A stretch of DNA of 64,000 nucleotides. Origin: an uncultured Bacteroidales bacterium (GTDB lineage: Bacteria; Bacteroidota; Bacteroidia; Bacteroidales; P3). The DNA lies in assembly GCA_944320465.1 (NCBI GenBank), contig CALUHO010000011.1, positions 1 through 64,000 on the forward strand, in the 5' to 3' direction. Position 1 is the first letter of the stretch. Every line of letters begins with the position of its first letter. The notes under the pieces were generated by a model. That model searched no databases and had not been told where the DNA came from. It worked only from the letters and a program-made list of their open reading frames with translations. Below are positions 34,098-61,805 of this stretch, piece after piece. The translations under genes were made by a program, and so were the position numbers.

Positions 34098-35008
34098 CTA
34101 TTCCAATTCTATCGGGGTATAATAGATGGATTCCTCCATTTCCTCGCCCGTCAACGGGCGGTGGTTCCCGTCTTCCTGGTAAATCAGTATTTTGCCCCCA
34201 TCGATACGGCGTAAGGAAAAGGCTTCTCGAATATGCCCTGTATCAAGCGGCGAGCCTTTGACCGAGAAGCTTTCCGGCGGATATAGTCCCGCTCTATCAT
34301 CGGCTCGTTCAAATTCTGTATCGCCCCATCGATAAATGTCCAAGAGTAGTCCCCCGCCTTGTCCTCCACTTTCAGTATCAAGCCCGGCAGCCCCCTGAAC
34401 TTGTACGGCCCGGCATCGATGGGTATCTCCGGGCAGAACCATGCCTCGTAGTTCCTCCCTTTGTACTCCGTTTCCGCCTTCTGGCACAGATACCCGCCCA
34501 CGCTGTCCGTCTCCGGCAAAAGTTCCCATGCAAACTTGGCCGCCGGCTCGGCATACTCAATCATCGTCGACTGCCTCAACAGCAACAACCTGAACAAACA
34601 GACCGACTGCCCTTGCGAATCTGTCACCCACTCCATCGGGTAATACTCACCCATGTACAAAAGTCCCGAATCCGCCTGCCACCTACGCTCGGCCTCCTCA
34701 ATCCTCCAGCTGACATCCTTCCTGTTCCCGCCTTTCCCCACATACATAATCCGATAATCTTCTATCTTTGCAGACTTGTCCTGATTCCAGAAACGCATCG
34801 TGTAATGCAGTTCCAACCATGCCGTGTCGTACACCCTCTCCATCCGCCACCGCCAATCGTCCCCGTAGCCCAAAAGGCGATAGGGGGCTGGGACATAGAA
34901 ATCGGAAAGTATCGTAGTCCCATGCTGGCATTGACCAGTCCACAGTAAAACAACAAAGAAAAGCACCAGCGTGCTACTCCTATCTATGAAATCCGCACCT
35001 CCCTTCAT
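34098..35008 (-). pseudogene. GLPGLI family protein, frameshifted near C-terminus
   Basis: A secreted Bacteroidetes-specific protein of unknown function, named for its GLPGLI motif, here RGLPGLILKVEDKAGDYSW. The start at ATG 35008 puts the hydrophobic STLVLFFVVLLWTGQC at the signal-peptide position; an ATG at 35029 is also possible. The frame stops early (VSMGAKY then TGA) at a run of five G (34195-34199 on the plus strand as C). Adding one G gives SMGGKILIYQED and continues to the family ending YYTPIELE at 34098, as in the second copy (FYTPIELE). Either a real slip mutation, a switchable tract or a sequencing error. It follows the GG-motif peptide gene. Confidence 0.8.
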
Positions 35009-35054
35009 AGCTATACTATAATCATCCATCCATCGATTGTATCGCCATCTTCCA

Positions 35055-35177: not shown

Positions 35178-35211
35178 TTTTCAATCATTTACTAATTAAC
35201 ACTTGCTTTTA

Positions 35212-35415
35212 GAAGCTGTTTAAATTTATTTGTTTGAGGCATCGGGAGGAAATTTCGAGGGATTTTGCCGCGTTTTTCAAAGGAGGATAGCCAAGCTATC
35301 GGACGTGAAAAACGCAAAAAAGCCCCGAAATAGCACCCGATGGGCAAACAAAATCCTGAAACCGCTCCCTGAAAATTCAGCCTTTTCAGGATTGCAAGAA
35401 ATTTTAAACAGCTTC
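35212..35415. mobile_element. Family A MITE-like element, copy 1
   Basis: 204 bp with terminal inverted repeats GAAGCTGTTTAAA ... TTTAAACAGCTTC. An internal hairpin, GCGTTTTTCA ... TGAAAAACGC enclosing GATAGC/GCTATC, is conserved in all copies. It is flanked by TTA (35209-35211) and TAA (35416-35418), so the target duplication has one mismatch. The same-strand copy is at 61598-61801 and the inverted copy at 41121-41324. No transposase inside. Confidence 0.9.
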
Positions 35416-35509
35416 TAACAAGCATTGGACACCTTTTTAACGAGATTTCAGCAATCTCGACCCAAGACCCTGCCACGAACCATGGCATGAAGAATGTCTC
35501 CGCCCCGCA

Positions 35510-37915: not shown

Positions 37916-38953
37916 CTAATCTTTGCCCGACAGGCCAATTATTTGCCTGATGATGCTTCCGTCCAGACCTTGAGCTTCCATTTTGCGCACCATATCGGCG
38001 ATAGCTTCCGCACGCCCCTCTTCCCGACCTTCAGCTCTACCTTCGGCCCGTCCTTCCAATCTACCCTCTTCCAATCCCTCTTTACGTCCTTCTGCTCGTC
38101 CTTCTGCTCGCCCTTCTGCTCGCCCTTCCTCTAACCCCTTAGCCAACCCTTCTTCCCGGCCTTCAGCGATACCTTTCAGACGTCCCTCGGCAATACCTTC
38201 CAGACGGCCTTCAGCCCGTTCTGTAGTGATGTTATCTCTCAGGATGTTGAGGTCGTCGAGATGCTTGTAGTAGGCATCGAGCTCGGACTTGCTCATTTTC
38301 TCCAGACGGAGCTTTTCCCTGACCAAGTCCAAGCCGGGTGCCGAGGCATCATCCCTCACCTCCCCTGTGTTCAGGTAGTGAATCCACTCCTCCAACGGGC
38401 TTTTGGCCACCTTGTTGAATTCATTCACTTTCAATATGTAATATTCTGGAAACAGCTGGCTGACGCTATCCACCTTGAACCTCTGCTTCTGGAAAGGAGA
38501 CAAATCGAGGATGTCTCCCAAATGTTGCCCTTTGAACTCGGTCTTCCCGTGGTAGAGGTAGTCCTTGCCCATGCCGAGGGGAAAATAGACGATGTTCACG
38601 CTGTAGACCTTGCGGACTTTCTCGTAATTGTCGCCCCGATTGATGTACTCGCTTAGCAGTTTGGACGTACCGAAAATCATCCGCTGGAAATAGGTCAGCT
38701 CGGTATTGTTCTGCACCTCGATGATGACTAATTGCCCGCCCTCCATCTCCGCCAGCAAATCCACCCGGTTACTCTTCTCGTATTCCGATTCCCGATTGCT
38801 TTCGCTTTCCAGAATCCGGTTGATTCTGACCTTCTGGTCGAACAAGGTGGAGAGAAAACCCTCCAACACTCCATAATTGGCCTTGTTGCGAAGAAGGCGT
38901 TTCATCGCCCAGTCGAAACGGACGTAACTTTCCGTTTTAGGTTTCTTGGTCAT
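37916..38953 (-). CDS. Rpn family nuclease / PD-(D/E)XK transposase-like protein
   Basis: 345 residues from ATG 38953 (MTKKPKTESYVRFDWAMKRL). Rpn proteins are RecA-independent recombination-promoting DNA endonucleases. The PD-(D/E)XK core is seen as ESNRESEYEKSNRVDLLA followed by VIIEVQN (Asp, then Glu-x-Gln). Residues from about 255 to 325 are a low-complexity series of EGRAEGR-type repeats, in DNA a run of near-identical 12-base units that could change length. The C-terminal MVRKMEAQGLDGSIIRQIIGLS is the usual short tail. An upstream Met frame of 12 residues is rejected. A palindrome with TATCTTTG lies 37 bases ahead. Confidence 0.88.
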   Translation of the reverse strand: MTKKPKTESYVRFDWAMKRLLRNKANYGVLEGFLSTLFDQKVRINRILESESNRESEYEKSNRVDLLAEMEGGQLVIIEVQNNTELTYFQRMIFGTSKLLSEYINRGDNYEKVRKVYSVNIVYFPLGMGKDYLYHGKTEFKGQHLGDILDLSPFQKQRFKVDSVSQLFPEYYILKVNEFNKVAKSPLEEWIHYLNTGEVRDDASAPGLDLVREKLRLEKMSKSELDAYYKHLDDLNILRDNITTERAEGRLEGIAEGRLKGIAEGREEGLAKGLEEGRAEGRAEGRAEGRKEGLEEGRLEGRAEGRAEGREEGRAEAIADMVRKMEAQGLDGSIIRQIIGLSGKD

Positions 38954-38989
38954 GGTGTTGTATGTTATCGGCCTTATGCCGAGACGCAT

Positions 38990-39109: not shown

Positions 39110-39316
39110 CTACTCCACTGTCCGCAAAAGATCCTTGAAAGACATCGATATCTTCTCTCCCGTGGAGAAGTCGTACAGGGTCTTCTCCCGGATGACGTAA
39201 TACAAAAGCCAGTACTGCTTCAAGGCCTCCAAGTACTGGTCCAAGCTGCTGTCCTTGTCCGTCCGCGCATTCCAGTAACGGGAAAAATCCGTCTTGGCCA
39301 TCACGTACAGCAACAA
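39110..39316 (-). pseudogene. C-terminal remnant, possibly of a TolC-like protein
   Basis: A 68-residue frame with no normal beginning. It reads TDKDSSLDQYLEALKQYWLLYYVIREKTLYDF, a helix-rich pattern (given here in parts: SSLDQYLEALKQYW, LLYYVIREKTLYDF) like the last helix of some Bacteroidetes TolC-family exporters. It directly follows a broken GLPGLI fragment on the same strand. The assignment is a weak resemblance. Confidence 0.3.
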
Positions 39317-39348: not shown

Positions 39349-39576
39349 CTAATCATTCCGGAAAGTTTTCCCTATGTTCACAACCCGTTCGTCTTCATAC
39401 CGTGCCTCATGGTTTTCATCCCAGAAAGACATCTTGTAGCGTATTTGCAGATAGGCCGTATCCAAAACCGCCTCTTTCGGCTTTACAGACTGCACAGACG
39501 GATAATACGGCTACGCAAACAAAGCGGAAGCGGCAAAAAAACATGAAAAAACAAGAAAAAGTTTCAAAGCATTCAT
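39349..39576 (-). pseudogene. GLPGLI family N-terminal fragment with amber codon 22
   Basis: From ATG 39576 the frame encodes a signal peptide (MNALKLFLVFSCFFAASALFA), then TAG at codon 22 (39513-39511). It continues in frame as PYYPSVQSVKPKEAVLDTAY and LQIRYKMSFWDENHEARY before stopping at 39349. This matches the N-terminus of the next GLPGLI gene (EEVLDTAFLRVRYEMEFW). The GLPGLI motif and C-terminal half are missing. The amber codon is at the same codon number and same structural place as in the copy at 39912-40802. Confidence 0.7.
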
Positions 39577-39682
39577 TTCCAAGACTCTTTTTAGCCAAAA
39601 ACAAGGATTTCCCGGTTTGGCCCGGGTGTGTTCCTCCCACAACAGGTATAAGAAAGTGTTGAGGAAAATGAAACCTTCCTTC

Positions 39683-39763
39683 CTACCAGCCTTGCGGCAG
39701 GCTGATACAGGACAAATCGTTCTTCCCGATAAAAGCTAAATATTGATTGATACTCCGCTTCAT
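39683..39763 (-). CDS. Possible 26-residue peptide
   Basis: An ORF with a strong Shine-Dalgarno (GAGGAGGTG, four to six bases before the ATG) encoding MKRSINQYLAFIGKNDLSCI and ending SLPQGW. Its C-terminal half resembles two remnants at 35510-35727. It sits between two GLPGLI genes, much as the GG-motif peptide sits next to the first GLPGLI gene. It has no GG cleavage site. It could be a small product peptide, a translated leader or a remnant. Confidence 0.35.
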   Translation of the reverse strand: MKRSINQYLAFIGKNDLSCISLPQGW

Positions 39764-39911
39764 CTGCACCTCCTCTGTTAAGAATGCAACGGATTTTTAC
39801 TATCGACCACAAGTTTACAAGATTTTCACGACACGGTAAAATCCGGATTCCACTTGCACAAAAAGCCAAAACGTGAACCGGGAAAATCGCCTCAAGCATC
39901 CTGTCCGCCAC

Positions 39912-40802
39912 CTACTCCAATTCTATCGGGGTATAAAAGAGGCCGCAATCCTGGATGTCATCCTCGGTAGCCATATGCCAATCGCCTTTTTCCATATCAT
40001 GGACCGTTATCCAATAGCCCATGGATTTCCATATGCGGCAAGGATTGGCATACACCCGTTCGATTTGTTTCCGCGCTTGAACCGGAGACACCTTTTGCAA
40101 GACAATCTGCCTTTCGGCGACAGGCCAGCGGCCTTTTTCCAAACCCCGCATCTCCCACGAATAATCCCCCCGCTTATCGACAACCCGGATTATCAAGCCC
40201 GGCAAACCACCGAACACGTAAGGACCTCCATCCACAGGGATTGCCGGACAATACCAGGCTTCATACTCCCGCCCCCGGTATTCCGTTTCCGCCTTCTGGC
40301 ATACATACCCGGCAATACTATCCGTTTCCTGCACGAGGTGCCATTCCAGGTTTCCCCTTTTCTCCTCATATTGCAGTATGGACAGAAGCTTTACCAATCG
40401 GAAACGGCAGCGCACACGCTTATCCGGCAGCAATATCCATTCAGCCGGATACACCGTTTCCTGTTCCACGGTCAACATATCGCCCCCTGCCCCTGCGATG
40501 CTGTCGTACAGGTGCAATCTTTCACTACAATCGTGCCTTGCCGCCTCACCGATTTCCACCATTCTGAAATCCTGACACTTGGCATCACCCAAATGATTCC
40601 AGAACTCCATTTCGTAACGAACCCGCAGAAAAGCCGTATCCAAGACTTCCTCCGACTCCCAGGCGGAAACCAAAGGAATATTCAAATAAGGATCCATCTT
40701 GCTTCCGGCTATCAACCCCATCACTTTCTGCACCTCCTACTGGGCGCACACCGGCCCCAGAAGCAAGAACAGGCCTCCGAACAATAGTTTCAAACAATTC
40801 AT
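39912..40802 (-). pseudogene. GLPGLI family protein with amber codon 22
   Basis: A full-length GLPGLI protein apart from one stop. ATG 40802 gives a signal peptide (MNCLKLLFGGLFLLLGPVCA then Q). TAG at codon 22 (40739-40737) stands where a Gln codon CAG would fit. The frame then runs unbroken through GGLPGLIIRVVDKRGDYSW to FYTPIELE at 39912. The amber is followed by AGGAGGTG and an ATG 12 bases later, so translation could restart without the signal peptide. Function of the family is unknown; members are exported and often lie near RiPP or TonB-receptor genes. Confidence 0.75.
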
Positions 40803-40855: not shown

Positions 40856-41548
40856 TCACCCATTCCGGCCACGAACATAAAATTCCGGATGCGCGTCTTT
40901 CAAATAGGCTTCATATCCTCCAGGCAAGGGAATACCGTACATCTCATGCATAGCCCGCAGCGGAACCAGATAAATATCGACACGCCGCTCATCCACATGT
41001 ACCACGTCCGGGATAATGCAACCCCGGCCTCCAAAAGCTCCATACATCGAAAACAATTTCTTGGATTTCCGAACCTGGCAAATCCAAACAGCATAATGCT
41101 GGTCGTACACCACAGCATAAGAAGCTGTTTAAAATTTTTTACAATCCTGAAAAGAATGAATCTTGAGGGGGCGGTTTCAGGATTTTGTTTGCCCATCGGG
41201 GGCTATTTGGGGTCTTGCTTGCGTTTTTCACGTCAGATAGCTGGGCTATCCTCCTTTGAAAAACGCCGCGCCATCCCTCCAAATCCCCTCCCGATGGCCT
41301 AAACAAATAAATTTAAACAGCTTCTAACAATAAGGATACAAGTCGCCAGTCCGAACCCTCCCCCATAAGGATTGCACATAGGCCGGATTGGTTTCCCTCT
41401 GGCTTTCTTTCATCCCATGCAGATAGGAAAGCTGCCAGCCCAGGCTTTCCAGCCTTCCACCCGGCAACGTAACTGCCCGGCAGACTGTTGAAGCCACCGC
41501 AAAAACCACTTGCCCTGTTCCACGCCCAAGACAAGGCTCGAAACCCAT
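40856..41548 (-). pseudogene. Unrecognised gene disrupted by a family A element
   Basis: Two pieces (41548-41328 and 41117-40856) read in one frame once the 204-bp element and one TAA duplicate are removed. The junction becomes GDLYPYCYAVVYDQHYAV. The rejoined ORF is about 160 codons, with a C-terminus containing RRVDIYLVPLRAMHEMYG and ending FYVRGRNG. I do not recognise the family. The first 35 codons look unlike coding sequence, so the true start may already be lost. It lies between the TolC gene and a GLPGLI gene. Confidence 0.5.
41121..41324. mobile_element. Family A MITE-like element, copy 2 (inverted)
   Basis: 204 bp, opposite orientation to copies 1 and 3, with the same terminal repeats and internal hairpin. 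It is flanked by perfect TAA duplicates (41118-41120 and 41325-41327). It interrupts an ORF that rejoins in frame on precise removal, which defines the element ends and the 3-bp target duplication. Confidence 0.92.
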
Positions 41549-41569
41549 TGAAAATACCCAAAACGCAAA

Positions 41570-43036
41570 TCATTCCCCCATCCCGGCACCGCAGCGGGAA
41601 AGGTAGTCGTGCAAGGCGTTCCGGTAGGCGATTTCTTGATCCACGCATTTGTCGGCCACCGAACGGAACTTGGTCTGCGCCTGCAACAACTCCGACAAAG
41701 GCGACATCCCCGCCCGATAATAGGCATTGAGCTTCTCCACGCTGGCACGAGCCGTGGCCTCGCTCTTCCGCGCTATCTGCAATTGGTCCCAAGCCACAGT
41801 CAAGTCAAGCCAAAGCTTGCGGATTTGCAACAATATCTGTTGCTGCAAGAAATCCCGCTCGTTTTCGGCCTTTTCCATCTGGTAGCCCAAACGCTGCATC
41901 TTGCGGGCCGTCTTGCCCCAATCCGAAAGCGGAATCTGGGCCATCACATAAACCGCCCCGTTGAACTCCCCGTTGCTGAGCAGGTTCCCGTAACCATACG
42001 AACCCCCGATGCCGATTTGAGGCAAAGCCTCGCCCAAGGCCATCTTCTTCTGGAGCCGGGAAGCATCGACGGAAAGATCCAGCAAACGCATTTCCTGCTG
42101 CCGGGACGCGATTTCCTCTTCCGGCACGAAATACGAGGAAGGCGGCAGCAAGGAATCCAAGCGGTCGGTCAGGAAAATGCTGTCCAAGGCCGGCAGGGAA
42201 TCCAAGACCACGCTCTGATAGGGATTGTATTCCAAGCCTATCGTATTGAACAGGTTCATCTTGGCCAATTTGATACCGCTCTCCACCTGGATAAAGCCCG
42301 AACGGACCTCATCCCGCTTGAGTTCCACCTGCATCACATCGGTTTCCGTGGCCAAGCCAGCCTGCCGGGCCGATGCCACATCCTTGTACAAAGTGTCCAA
42401 CAGCGTGGCTAATTCCTGCAAGGTGATACGTTTTTCCTCCAAGGAAACCACCTGCCAATAACCGCTCTCCACCTCCTTGTCCATATCCCGCACGGCAATC
42501 TGCTCCTGCAAGGCAGCGGCTTCCACCCCCACGGCGGCCAAACGGTTCCCATTCACGATACGGCCCCCGGCAAAGACGGGTTGCATGGCCGAAACCGAAG
42601 CCATGAAACCCCGGTGCAGCATCGTATATTCGGCATTGAATCCATATTGCGTTGCCAACTCGTCCATGAGTTCCTGCAAGCGGACCGCAAAATCGGATGT
42701 ACCGAGGATGTCGGTCAAACCGATTTCAAGCATGGGCTGCAAGGCAGCGAATCCGAAAGCCGTAGCGGATACACTAGGGAAATAAGCCGCCAAGGCTTCC
42801 TGCTTCTGGGCCTTGGCAGCCAAGATATCTAAGCGGGCGTTCTTGACGGCCATGCTGTTTTCCACGGCCATCCGGCGGCAGTCTTCCACCGAGAGTTCGA
42901 GCCTAGGCGACTGCCCTTGAATCGTCTGCGCCTGAAGCGAACCACCGGTTCCAAACCCGCACACTCCACATAAGCCGCCCAACACCAAGGCAAAACCGCC
43001 AAATCCCAAGCGTATGTTTCTCCTTAGATTATTCAT
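41570..43036 (-). CDS. TolC-family outer-membrane efflux protein
   Basis: Outer-membrane channel of a tripartite efflux pump, 488 residues from ATG 43036. That start has a strong GGAGG six to ten bases upstream and yields a signal peptide (LGFGGFALVLGGLCGVCGFG, then SLQAQ). Two long coiled-coil repeats with Ala/Gln/Leu patterns are seen, for example DILAAKAQKQEALAAYFPSV and KLNAYYRAGMSPLSELLQAQ. The start overlaps the end of the RND gene by eight bases. Third gene of the MFP-RND-TolC operon. Confidence 0.9.
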   Translation of the reverse strand: MNNLRRNIRLGFGGFALVLGGLCGVCGFGTGGSLQAQTIQGQSPRLELSVEDCRRMAVENSMAVKNARLDILAAKAQKQEALAAYFPSVSATAFGFAALQPMLEIGLTDILGTSDFAVRLQELMDELATQYGFNAEYTMLHRGFMASVSAMQPVFAGGRIVNGNRLAAVGVEAAALQEQIAVRDMDKEVESGYWQVVSLEEKRITLQELATLLDTLYKDVASARQAGLATETDVMQVELKRDEVRSGFIQVESGIKLAKMNLFNTIGLEYNPYQSVVLDSLPALDSIFLTDRLDSLLPPSSYFVPEEEIASRQQEMRLLDLSVDASRLQKKMALGEALPQIGIGGSYGYGNLLSNGEFNGAVYVMAQIPLSDWGKTARKMQRLGYQMEKAENERDFLQQQILLQIRKLWLDLTVAWDQLQIARKSEATARASVEKLNAYYRAGMSPLSELLQAQTKFRSVADKCVDQEIAYRNALHDYLSRCGAGMGE

Positions 43037-46000
43037 GCTCTCCTCCTTCCCTCGTTTGCAATGCCTGCACCGCTTGCCTTTCCCGAACGGTCTGCCCCGC
43101 CTGACCAAAATTCCTTTGCTTGGCCATCCTCCGCTTCTCCCCTATCTGGAAAATCTGCCAGTATGACACCGGCATAATCAGCACAATCAAGATAATCGAA
43201 AGCATCGTCCCGAAACAAATCACCACCCCCATCGGCTTCCACAGGAAATCCCCGCTGAGAATCATCGGCAATACGCCCAAAGCCGTGGTGCAGGAAGTCA
43301 GAAAGATAGGCCGCATCCTGCGTTTACCAGCCTCCTCGGCGGCTTCCTTCAAGGGCATTCCCCTCTCAAAACGGAGTTCCTCGGCATACTCGAACATGAT
43401 AATGCCGTTGCGGACAATGATGCCCACCAAGCTAATCAAACCCAGCACGGCGGTCAACCCGAAATCGAGCCGGAACAGCCACAATCCCAGAAACGCACCG
43501 AAAAAGCAAAGCACGCTCAGCACCAATGTCAAGGCCGCAATCGAAATCTTCTTGAAATGGAAAAGCAGGAAGAAGAACAAAACCGCCACCGCGCAAATGA
43601 ATGCCATCATGATTTCCGGGCCGACATCCTTGTTGATGGCCGAAAGGCCGGCATATTCCACCCTCGCCCCCTCCGGCAGGTTCGGTTTAATATGGCTTTC
43701 CACAAAGGCTTTGATATGTTTCATCGCTTCCGGCTGGCTGCATTCGTATTTCATATCGGCCGTCACGGTCAGACAGGATTCGCCCGCCTTGCGGGGATAC
43801 GACTCCAGCTCCCATCCTGGCTGGATTTCAGCCACTTGACGCAAAGGCACCGACACACCAGGATACAGAGTCGGCAACAGGTAATTCTCCAAAACGGAAT
43901 AATCCATCTGACGGGACACCGCCTCGCTATACAGGCTCACCGGCACGGACTTCTCCCCTTCCCAGACCGTCCCTACGGGCAATCCGTTGAAAGCCCCCGA
44001 CAGAGACAAGGACACCATGCTCTTGTTAATGCCCAATCGGGAAGCCTCGTCCGGATCTAAAGAAATATCAATCGAGCTTACATAGCCATCGCAATCGGTA
44101 TGGACCCATTGCAGCACATCCCCCATGCCCGATAAAAAATGCCGGATACTGTCGGCGAAAGGCTTGAGGACTTCCGGATCCGCCCCACGAAGCTCGATGG
44201 CCACCGGCGCGGTCACCGCTTGGTAATCCATCTGCTTGAACCTCAGCAATGCCCCAGGGAACAGATGTTCGTATTTCTGCTGGCATTCCTGCAACAAAGC
44301 CTCCGTGGCCCGCAAGGACGAAGTGGTGACAATCAGTTGCGCCGTGTTCGAGCCGGGCAACATCGGCACGTAAATCGCATTGAAACGCGGCGCGCCCGTT
44401 CCGATGAACGAGGTCACCGACTTGACCCTCCGGTCGGCTGTCAGCAGCCGCTGTATGGAGTCGGCCACCTTCTCGGTCTGCTCCAAGCCTGCATTGTTTT
44501 CCAGATAAATCTCCACGGCGAAATACTCCCGGGCCGCCATCGGCATCATCTGGATGTTGAGCTGGAAGAAAAAGACCACGCCCAGAACCACCGTGCCCAG
44601 TCCCAACAACAATGTCCGGCGAGGATATTTGAAGCAAACCGCCTGCAAGCGTTCGTACCCGTTCTGCATCCCGTCGAAGAAGCGTTTCTGGACCCGGGCC
44701 AACAGACTATTGCCCTCCGCCCTCGCGCTGCCGATGAAACGGACTTCCAACGAAGGCACCACTAACATCGCATAGGCCAAAGAAGTCCCCAAGGCTATCG
44801 TGACCACCCAAGGGAAATAGCTGACGAACTCGCCGAGATAGCCGGTAATCACTTTCAAGCTCGGGAAAAACATCACGCAGATGGCGGTCGTGGCCATGAA
44901 CATCGGCATAAACAGCTCCTTGGCACTGGCGCAGGCCGCATCGATCCGCGAATAACCTTGCCCCAAGTAATTCATATAGCCATCCATCGTGATGATGGAA
45001 TCATCCACGATCATCCCCAGCACCACAATCAGCGATGCCAAGGTCACGGTATTGAGGTCGATGCCGAAAAGGTACATCAACGCCAAGGCCACCGCCGTGC
45101 AGACCGGCACGCCTGAACTGGCAATCAGGGCCGAACGCATCGGGAACAGCATCAGCATCACGAAAATCACCACCGCCATCGAAATCAGAAGGTCGCGCAG
45201 GAAGGAATACACCGAACTGCCCACCACCTTGGGCTGGTCGGTAATCCGGCTCATCGTCACGCTCTCCGGCAGACCGGTCGAAAATTCCGCCAAAACCTTG
45301 TCCACCTCCTCGCCGAAGGCCACGATATTGTTGTCCGGCCTCATCTCGATAGAGAGAATCAAGGCGGTATGCCCGTTGTACTTGACTAAAGACGAAGGTT
45401 CCTTGTAACGGCGTTCTATCCTGGCAATATCCTTGAGCCGTATCGAGTTACCGCCCGGATCCACATAGACGATATGGTTGGCGATTTCCTCCTCGGAGGC
45501 CACCAGGCTCTTGACATGTATCGGAGAATAAGCGTAACCGGTCTTGAACGTCCCGCCTAAAAGCTGCAGGCCGGAAGTCTGGTAGTTGAGCATCAAGGCG
45601 GAGGGACTGATACCGTAGGCCGAGAGCTTGTCCATGTCCACCGTGACAGCGATTTCCTCGTTCTGGGTCCCCACGATGCTTACATTGGCCGTGGCAGGAA
45701 TCGATTTGAGTCGTTCCGAAAGGTCTTCGGCATATTCCTGCATTTCCCGATAGCTCTTATCAGCCGATTCCAAGGCTATCAGCAAGGCGGAAACCGAACT
45801 GAAATTATCCACGACCGCCACCGCCAAGACTCCGGGCGGCAGGGTCATTTTGGCCGCATCCAACCGAAGCTTGATCTTGGACCAGGCTTCGTCCTTTTCC
45901 TTGGCCGGAACTGTCAAATCCACATAGATATAACAGATGCCATCCTTAGAATAGGAATAGGTGGTTTCCCGATTCACCTCCGAAAACGAGAACAAAATGT

Positions 46001-61578: not shown

Positions 61579-61597
61579 CCTGTTTTTCCGTTTATAA

Positions 61598-61801
61598 GAA
61601 GCTGTTTAAATTTATTTGTTTAGGCCATCGGGAGAGGATTTCGAGGGATGGCGTGGCGTTTTTCAAAGGAGGATAGCTCAGCTATCTGACGTGAAAAACG
61701 CAAGCAAGACCCGAAATAGTCCCCGATGGGCAAGCAAAATCCTGAAACCGGTTCCTGAAAATTCAGTCTTTTCAGGATTGCAAGAAATTTTAAACAGCTT
61801 C
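61598..61801. mobile_element. Family A MITE-like element, copy 3
   Basis: 204 bp in the same orientation as copy 1, flanked by perfect TAA duplicates (61595-61597 and 61802-61804). It starts 19 bases after the cstA stop and ends four bases before the start codon of a glycosyltransferase pseudogene. The conserved hairpin may act as a terminator for cstA. Confidence 0.92.
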
Positions 61802-61805
61802 TAAG

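Follow-up and report, generated by a model that had tools for sequence, protein, structure and literature searches.

The window, by which we mean the whole stretch of 64,000 nucleotides that was analysed, belongs to a Bacteroidales draft genome of 2.85 Mb in 61 contigs (96.5% complete). GLPGLI genes were found at four places in this genome, three of them in the window (copies A, B and C) and one on contig C22 (copy D), with 12 of the 19 first-look candidates of the genome scored for this count. The features of the window on which the analysis turns are:

34098..35029, minus strand: GLPGLI copy B, 281 open codons followed by a frame change near 34196; conserved C-terminus lost
39349..39576, minus strand: GLPGLI copy C, a 5' remnant of 75 codons with TAG at codons 22 and 76; remainder missing
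39511..39513, minus strand: amber stop of copy C (TAG, codon 22); the intact gene at the syntenic place in genus relative G007 has CAG (Gln)
39912..40802, minus strand: GLPGLI copy A, full length, a single TAG at codon 22, otherwise open
40737..40739, minus strand: amber stop of copy A (TAG, codon 22); Q in the intact protein P0001
40856..41113, minus strand: 3' piece of a split ORF, with its end 53 bases upstream of copy A
41120..41325, no strand assigned: MITE-like repeat of 206 bp, bounded by 14-bp terminal inverted repeats; TTA is its likely target duplication
41324..41548, minus strand: 5' piece of the same ORF, which lies upstream of A and is split by the repeat
35202-35416, 41120-41334 and 61597-61804: matches of the ~206-bp repeat, with 14-bp inverted ends AGAAGCTGTTTAAA

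GLPGLI copies and their lesions

From its ATG at 40802 copy A reads MNCLKLLFGGLFLLLGPVCAQ, a stop and EVQ, and from its ATG at 39576 copy C reads MNALKLFLVFSCFFAASALFA, a stop and PYY; translation thus confirmed the initial annotation, which had placed a TAG in both genes at codon 22, where the signal peptide ends. Alignment to intact homologs, proposed there as a check, put a glutamine at codon 22 for both copies, so that each TAG replaces a glutamine as had been suggested: for A the reference was P0001 (296 aa, cluster of 67 members), which is 96.6% identical to it over 296 residues, and for C the G007 gene. The frames also stay open past the stops, for 274 codons in A, up to the normal GLPGLI C-terminus, and for 53 codons in C, where a second TAG follows at 39351-39349.

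Copy A retains the GLPGLI core (TIGR01200 profile, 109.3 bits against a cut-off of 50) and all 33 invariant columns of a 16-row alignment that has copy A among its rows. Besides the stop it differs from P0001 at nine residues: at four of them P0001 agrees with the residue commonest in the family (present in 11 to 15 of 26 relatives) while A carries one that is rare there (0 or 1 of 26), and at one, residue 237, it is A and not P0001 that has the commoner residue (12 vs 10 of 26). The 274 open codons and the 33 conserved columns suggest that copy A either broke recently or has a frame that remains selected. In A and C, unlike in intact homologs, the codon-22 TAG uncouples the signal peptide from the mature domain.

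Copy C had no profile-family match of its own (TIGR01200 included), and the GLPGLI core is absent from it; it matches the intact relative P0068 at 83% over 81 residues. In G007 an intact C-type gene stands in the same neighbourhood: positions 39357-39830 (C and upstream DNA) share 90% DNA identity with locus L053 of that genome, the similarity ending at 39357, and 41569-43500, which we read as a TolC-like gene plus the end of one for an RND transporter, share 88% with the G007 locus. The dN/dS of C against the intact relative L004 was 0.34 on 74 codons, slightly higher than the 0.21 and 0.17 of the neighbours; taken together, the dN/dS values give a weak and mixed signal of selection.

Three observations concern the DNA around C. 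Just past its breakpoint, 39216-39312, part of an ORF remnant, is 97% identical to positions 1-97 of locus L052 (the match reaches the edge of the compared stretch), which lies on contig C22, ~3.8 kb away from copy D. Copy C keeps the part before ~codon 76 (39349-39357) and the D copy of genus member G001 keeps the part from ~codon 79 (L057 ~9036, G001:C135), so these two paralogs have breakpoints that almost coincide. Positions 37916-38989 hold a PD-(D/E)XK nuclease gene (Rpn-like, PF12784) with a long repeated glutamate/glycine/arginine tail, of a family with seven matches in this genome.

Copy B scored 118.2 bits with TIGR01200 (cut-off 50) and is without about its last 31 residues: its alignment with P0008 runs in one frame up to residue 278 and switches to a different frame for residues 278 to 309. 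Copy D is spread across three frames by two frame changes, and its C-terminal half scored 82.1 bits with the same profile (cut-off 50). Both breaks of D lie inside a gap-free 604-bp match to G001 at 97.7%, so they are common to G001 and D and were inherited; the G001 counterpart is without the 5' part. Over 125 codons D and G001 show 8.5 nonsynonymous and 0.5 synonymous differences, a pattern that, on nine changes only, would fit a sequence with no sign of constraint.

Each of the four GLPGLI copies that this genome yielded carries a lesion, and the lesions differ in kind: nonsense in A, a frame change in B, nonsense plus truncation in C and two frame changes in D (lesions were read against P0001 for A, P0008 for B, L004/L053 for C, and P0068 and P0070 for D). 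With four of four copies broken, the earlier argument that random decay was an unlikely source of the two stops is not supported. The 13 genomes of the genus hold 13 GLPGLI copies, of which seven have a full-length frame (in G002, G004 (two), G005, G007:C67, G008 and G010); the other six are the four copies of this genome, the copy of G001 and G007:C32, which matches the last 178 residues only. A GLPGLI match was absent from five of these 13 genomes, and at the level of the taxonomic family a match was present in 23 of 190 genomes. Given the share of full-length copies and of genus genomes without a match, the GLPGLI gene looks dispensable.

The repeat upstream of A, the ends and duplication of which were read by eye, leaves 207 bases between the two TTA copies, i.e., whole codons, and thus both pieces of the interrupted ORF stand in one frame. 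Matches to it number at least 44 in this genome and at least 54 in G007 (some being pieces of one copy) and five each in G001 and G006, and none was found in the other nine of the 13 genus genomes. Since several copies in this genome are 99-100% identical and those nine genomes have none, the MITE-like repeat seems to have been recently active.

Some GLPGLI genes look like mosaics. The first half of B (34184-35029) is as in P0007/P0008 and its second half as in P0078: up to the end of the core, 218 of 220 aligned residues of B are those of P0008, and beyond it 59 of 61 are those of P0078. Likewise the first half of P0003 is P0078-like (119 of 119 residues in three blocks, though its first two blocks differ), and its second half is that of A (39912-40733; 129 of 130 residues). 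Such mosaics point either to recombination in the conserved core or to chimeric assembly. No further copy of the P0078-like first half was found in this genome (12 of the 19 first-look candidates scored), which makes a mix-up within the genome less likely; mixed strains in the metagenome could be the source.

Placement of the two amber stops

The two stops had been taken to lie at one structural site. The codon number is indeed equal, but the stops are one residue apart relative to the A-x-A cleavage sites (placed by eye in both genes): in A the stop is residue +2, with the +1 glutamine intact, while in C it is residue +1. Moreover the flanks of the stops differ, being GTGTGCGCCCAG-TAG-GAGGTG in A and TTGTTTGCG-TAG-CCGTAT in C. 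Together with the separate intact orthologs of the two copies, these differences point to two independent nonsense events; as judged from sequence comparison, the stops in A and C arose separately.

Bochtler and colleagues (PMC5837995) report that in Bacteroidetes a glutamine is usually exposed when signal peptidase I cleaves (the Q-rule), the 'Q-value' averaged over species being 71%. Among 168 full-length homologs of the GLPGLI copies, small-x-small-Q was present near residues 14-40 in 153, by a loose motif and with many close kin in the set; the next commonest residue by the same motif, A, was present in 93 of the 168. A second Q at +2 was found in just 11 of 152 motif-bearing homologs. With sites placed by motif, the Q-rule +1 glutamine is kept in A and present in the intact ortholog of C, and the protein that the gene encodes when intact is likely secreted.

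Other signal-peptide genes of the genome were represented by genes of a carboxypeptidase-like domain, in which Q followed the site in 8 of 10. The ten were those with a recognisable signal peptide among 30 loci, the remainder being too short (4), deep in a long frame (13), without a candidate start (2) or set aside by eye (L146). No signal-peptide look was found in the 35 residues before the preceding stop of any of these ten genes.

A CAG glutamine codon turns into TAG by a single C-to-T transition. In A, codons 21-22 account for 2 of 34 stop-making single transitions (codon 22 itself being added to the 33 counted). In the C-type gene, counted on L004, codon 22 is one of five in the part that C keeps, or one of 20 in the whole gene. 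Under a simple model, and for a coincidence chosen post hoc, the joint chance of both placements is ~0.012 or ~0.003, respectively. The near-coincidence of the stops likely reflects the Q-rule glutamine, which is one transition away from a stop. Since the Q-rule has no bearing on +2, however, the stop site of C is better explained by it than that of A. No report of a nonsense change at a Q-rule site was found in the literature searched, though one may exist.

The presence of TAG for an ortholog glutamine and the lesions in all four copies of the genome suggest that A and C are very probably ordinary pseudogenes, each inactivated by its own nonsense change. Translation of A or C would yield a 21-residue signal peptide only and no exported protein. 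C was cut short besides its nonsense change. CAG to TAG at the Q-rule glutamine would probably be what put both stops almost together. The stops, the intact orthologs and the lesions of the other copies are observed, whereas loss of function, the order of events, the cleavage sites and the role of the Q-rule in the near-coincidence are what we infer. The stops are thus likely separate hits on dying genes and not a switch. Moreover, with C truncated and the ORF upstream of A split by the repeat, decay seems to affect the whole locus. The cause would be an ordinary one, independent decay of dispensable paralogs, and the Q-rule makes the coincidence less surprising.

Other readings of the stops

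That a sequencing or assembly error in the draft made one or both stops is unlikely. The genome is in 61 contigs and chimeric assembly could account for B and other mosaic genes, but two separate substitutions would be required, and these stand beside many other differences from relatives. Moreover, 5'-truncated alleles of both genes occur in other assemblies: P0002, an allele of A (8 members), is called from codon 28 where its relatives start at codon 1, and P0069, of C type (10 members), is called from codon 38 and from codon 39 onward has the same sequence as the G007 protein. These two may represent 5' lesions near the same place in other assemblies.

Translation of A might instead restart past the stop, at a GTG or ATG (codons 24, 27 or 28) beside AGGAGGTG, and give a folded but unexported GLPGLI protein, a reading that we regard as distinctly improbable. 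AGGAGGTG overlaps the stop of A; the predicted P0001 fold is confident from ~residue 50, so that a codon-28 product would hold the whole folded domain; and P0002 is called from this very codon. Such a product would be without a signal peptide and would remain cytoplasmic, however, whereas 153 of the 168 homologs show the exported-start motif small-x-small-Q, and C has neither a sequence like AGGAGGTG at its stop nor the core. Bacteroidia ribosomes, moreover, are reported not to recognise Shine-Dalgarno sequences (PMC9976891), which also counts against a restart.

The mosaic genes offer a further lead. In this species group, copies silenced after the signal peptide could serve as donors, which would be why their mature frame stays open, and expressed genes could gain new halves by recombining within the GLPGLI core; we assign little probability to such shuffling of cassettes. 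If true, it would resemble pilin or surface-antigen variation, and the Q-rule glutamine would be a natural spot at which to silence a donor with its cargo unharmed.

The initial annotation had also listed programmed readthrough and had judged general recoding of TAG unlikely. On recoding it was right: no CTA anticodon was found among the 39 tRNA places of the draft (96.5% complete), and stop use in the window is even, with 11 TAG, 11 TGA and 10 TAA in 32 mechanically picked long ORFs (the set includes a spurious ORF opposite A, ending in TAG, and copy B, ending in TGA). Recoding of TAG was rejected on these two grounds. Programmed amber readthrough, in which the stop would be decoded as an amino acid at some rate and so tune export, is highly improbable. 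The frame of A is open and conserved beyond the stop, as readthrough would need, but the tRNA census and the 11 of 32 long ORFs that TAG terminates count against it as well, the orthologs P0001 and L004 have Q in place of a conserved stop, and readthrough of C would give a stub of 75 residues without the GLPGLI core.

A rough scan covered 149 kb of DNA of this genome and 929 kb from elsewhere, with some overlap between loci, and looked for a start resembling a signal peptide that is followed by a stop and then by at least 120 open codons, a length rule by which C was missed. It returned 11 rows at nine distinct places (L055/L058 and L057/L076 being pairs). Among the three rows from this genome, A alone has an A-x-A-like site no more than one residue away from its stop. 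In three rows from other DNA (two of them one place) such a site lay at 0 residues; these are candidate genes only. As only A among the three own rows fits, a general device of stops at signal-peptide ends was rejected, and the want of a second case beside A in the 149 kb likewise speaks against readthrough.

Lastly, that one broken copy passed its stop to the other, by shared descent or gene conversion, has next to no probability: the stop codon and codon number are the same and GLPGLI genes here have mosaic halves, but the DNA flanking the stops differs, the two copies lost residues at different distances from the cleavage site, and for each an intact ortholog of its own exists.

The case is mostly a caution: that two stops share a codon number need not imply a mechanism where a phylum-wide rule sets a stop-prone codon. 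It also yields a testable idea, namely that in secreted proteins of Bacteroidota nonsense changes may recur at the Q-rule glutamine.

Relation to known families and pseudogenes

Like members of the GLPGLI family (TIGR01200; Pfam Porph_ging, PF09697), A and B clear the profile cut-off by a wide margin. Unlike them, A has its signal peptide severed by TAG, C is without the core, B is without the C-terminus and D is split. The predicted model of P0001 has a mean pLDDT of 85.4, and its fold matches with E <0.001 were to PNGase F-II only (Foldseek E 1.8e-9 to 5.4e-7; PDB 4r4z, 4r4x and 7zgn). PNGase F-II was also the only match by sequence among PDB profiles up to E 0.1, and the profile of its N-terminal domain (PF22252) gave 30 bits for A and 27.7 bits for B against a cut-off of 27.6. 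Overall, however, the similarity to PNGase F-II is weak, with a query TM-score of 0.38-0.45 (best match 0.45). P0001 has 296 residues against 529-559 in the enzyme; ~205 alignment columns are matched, and the rest of the enzyme is without a counterpart.

As pseudogenes, the copies can be set beside those of curated Porphyromonas gingivalis genomes, for which PMC5771137 describes pseudogenes by nonsense, frame change and truncation. Like these Bacteroidales pseudogenes, the GLPGLI copies described here include all three kinds of lesion. Unlike them, two paralogs carry stops within one residue of each other, at a codon that the Q-rule makes prone to become a stop.
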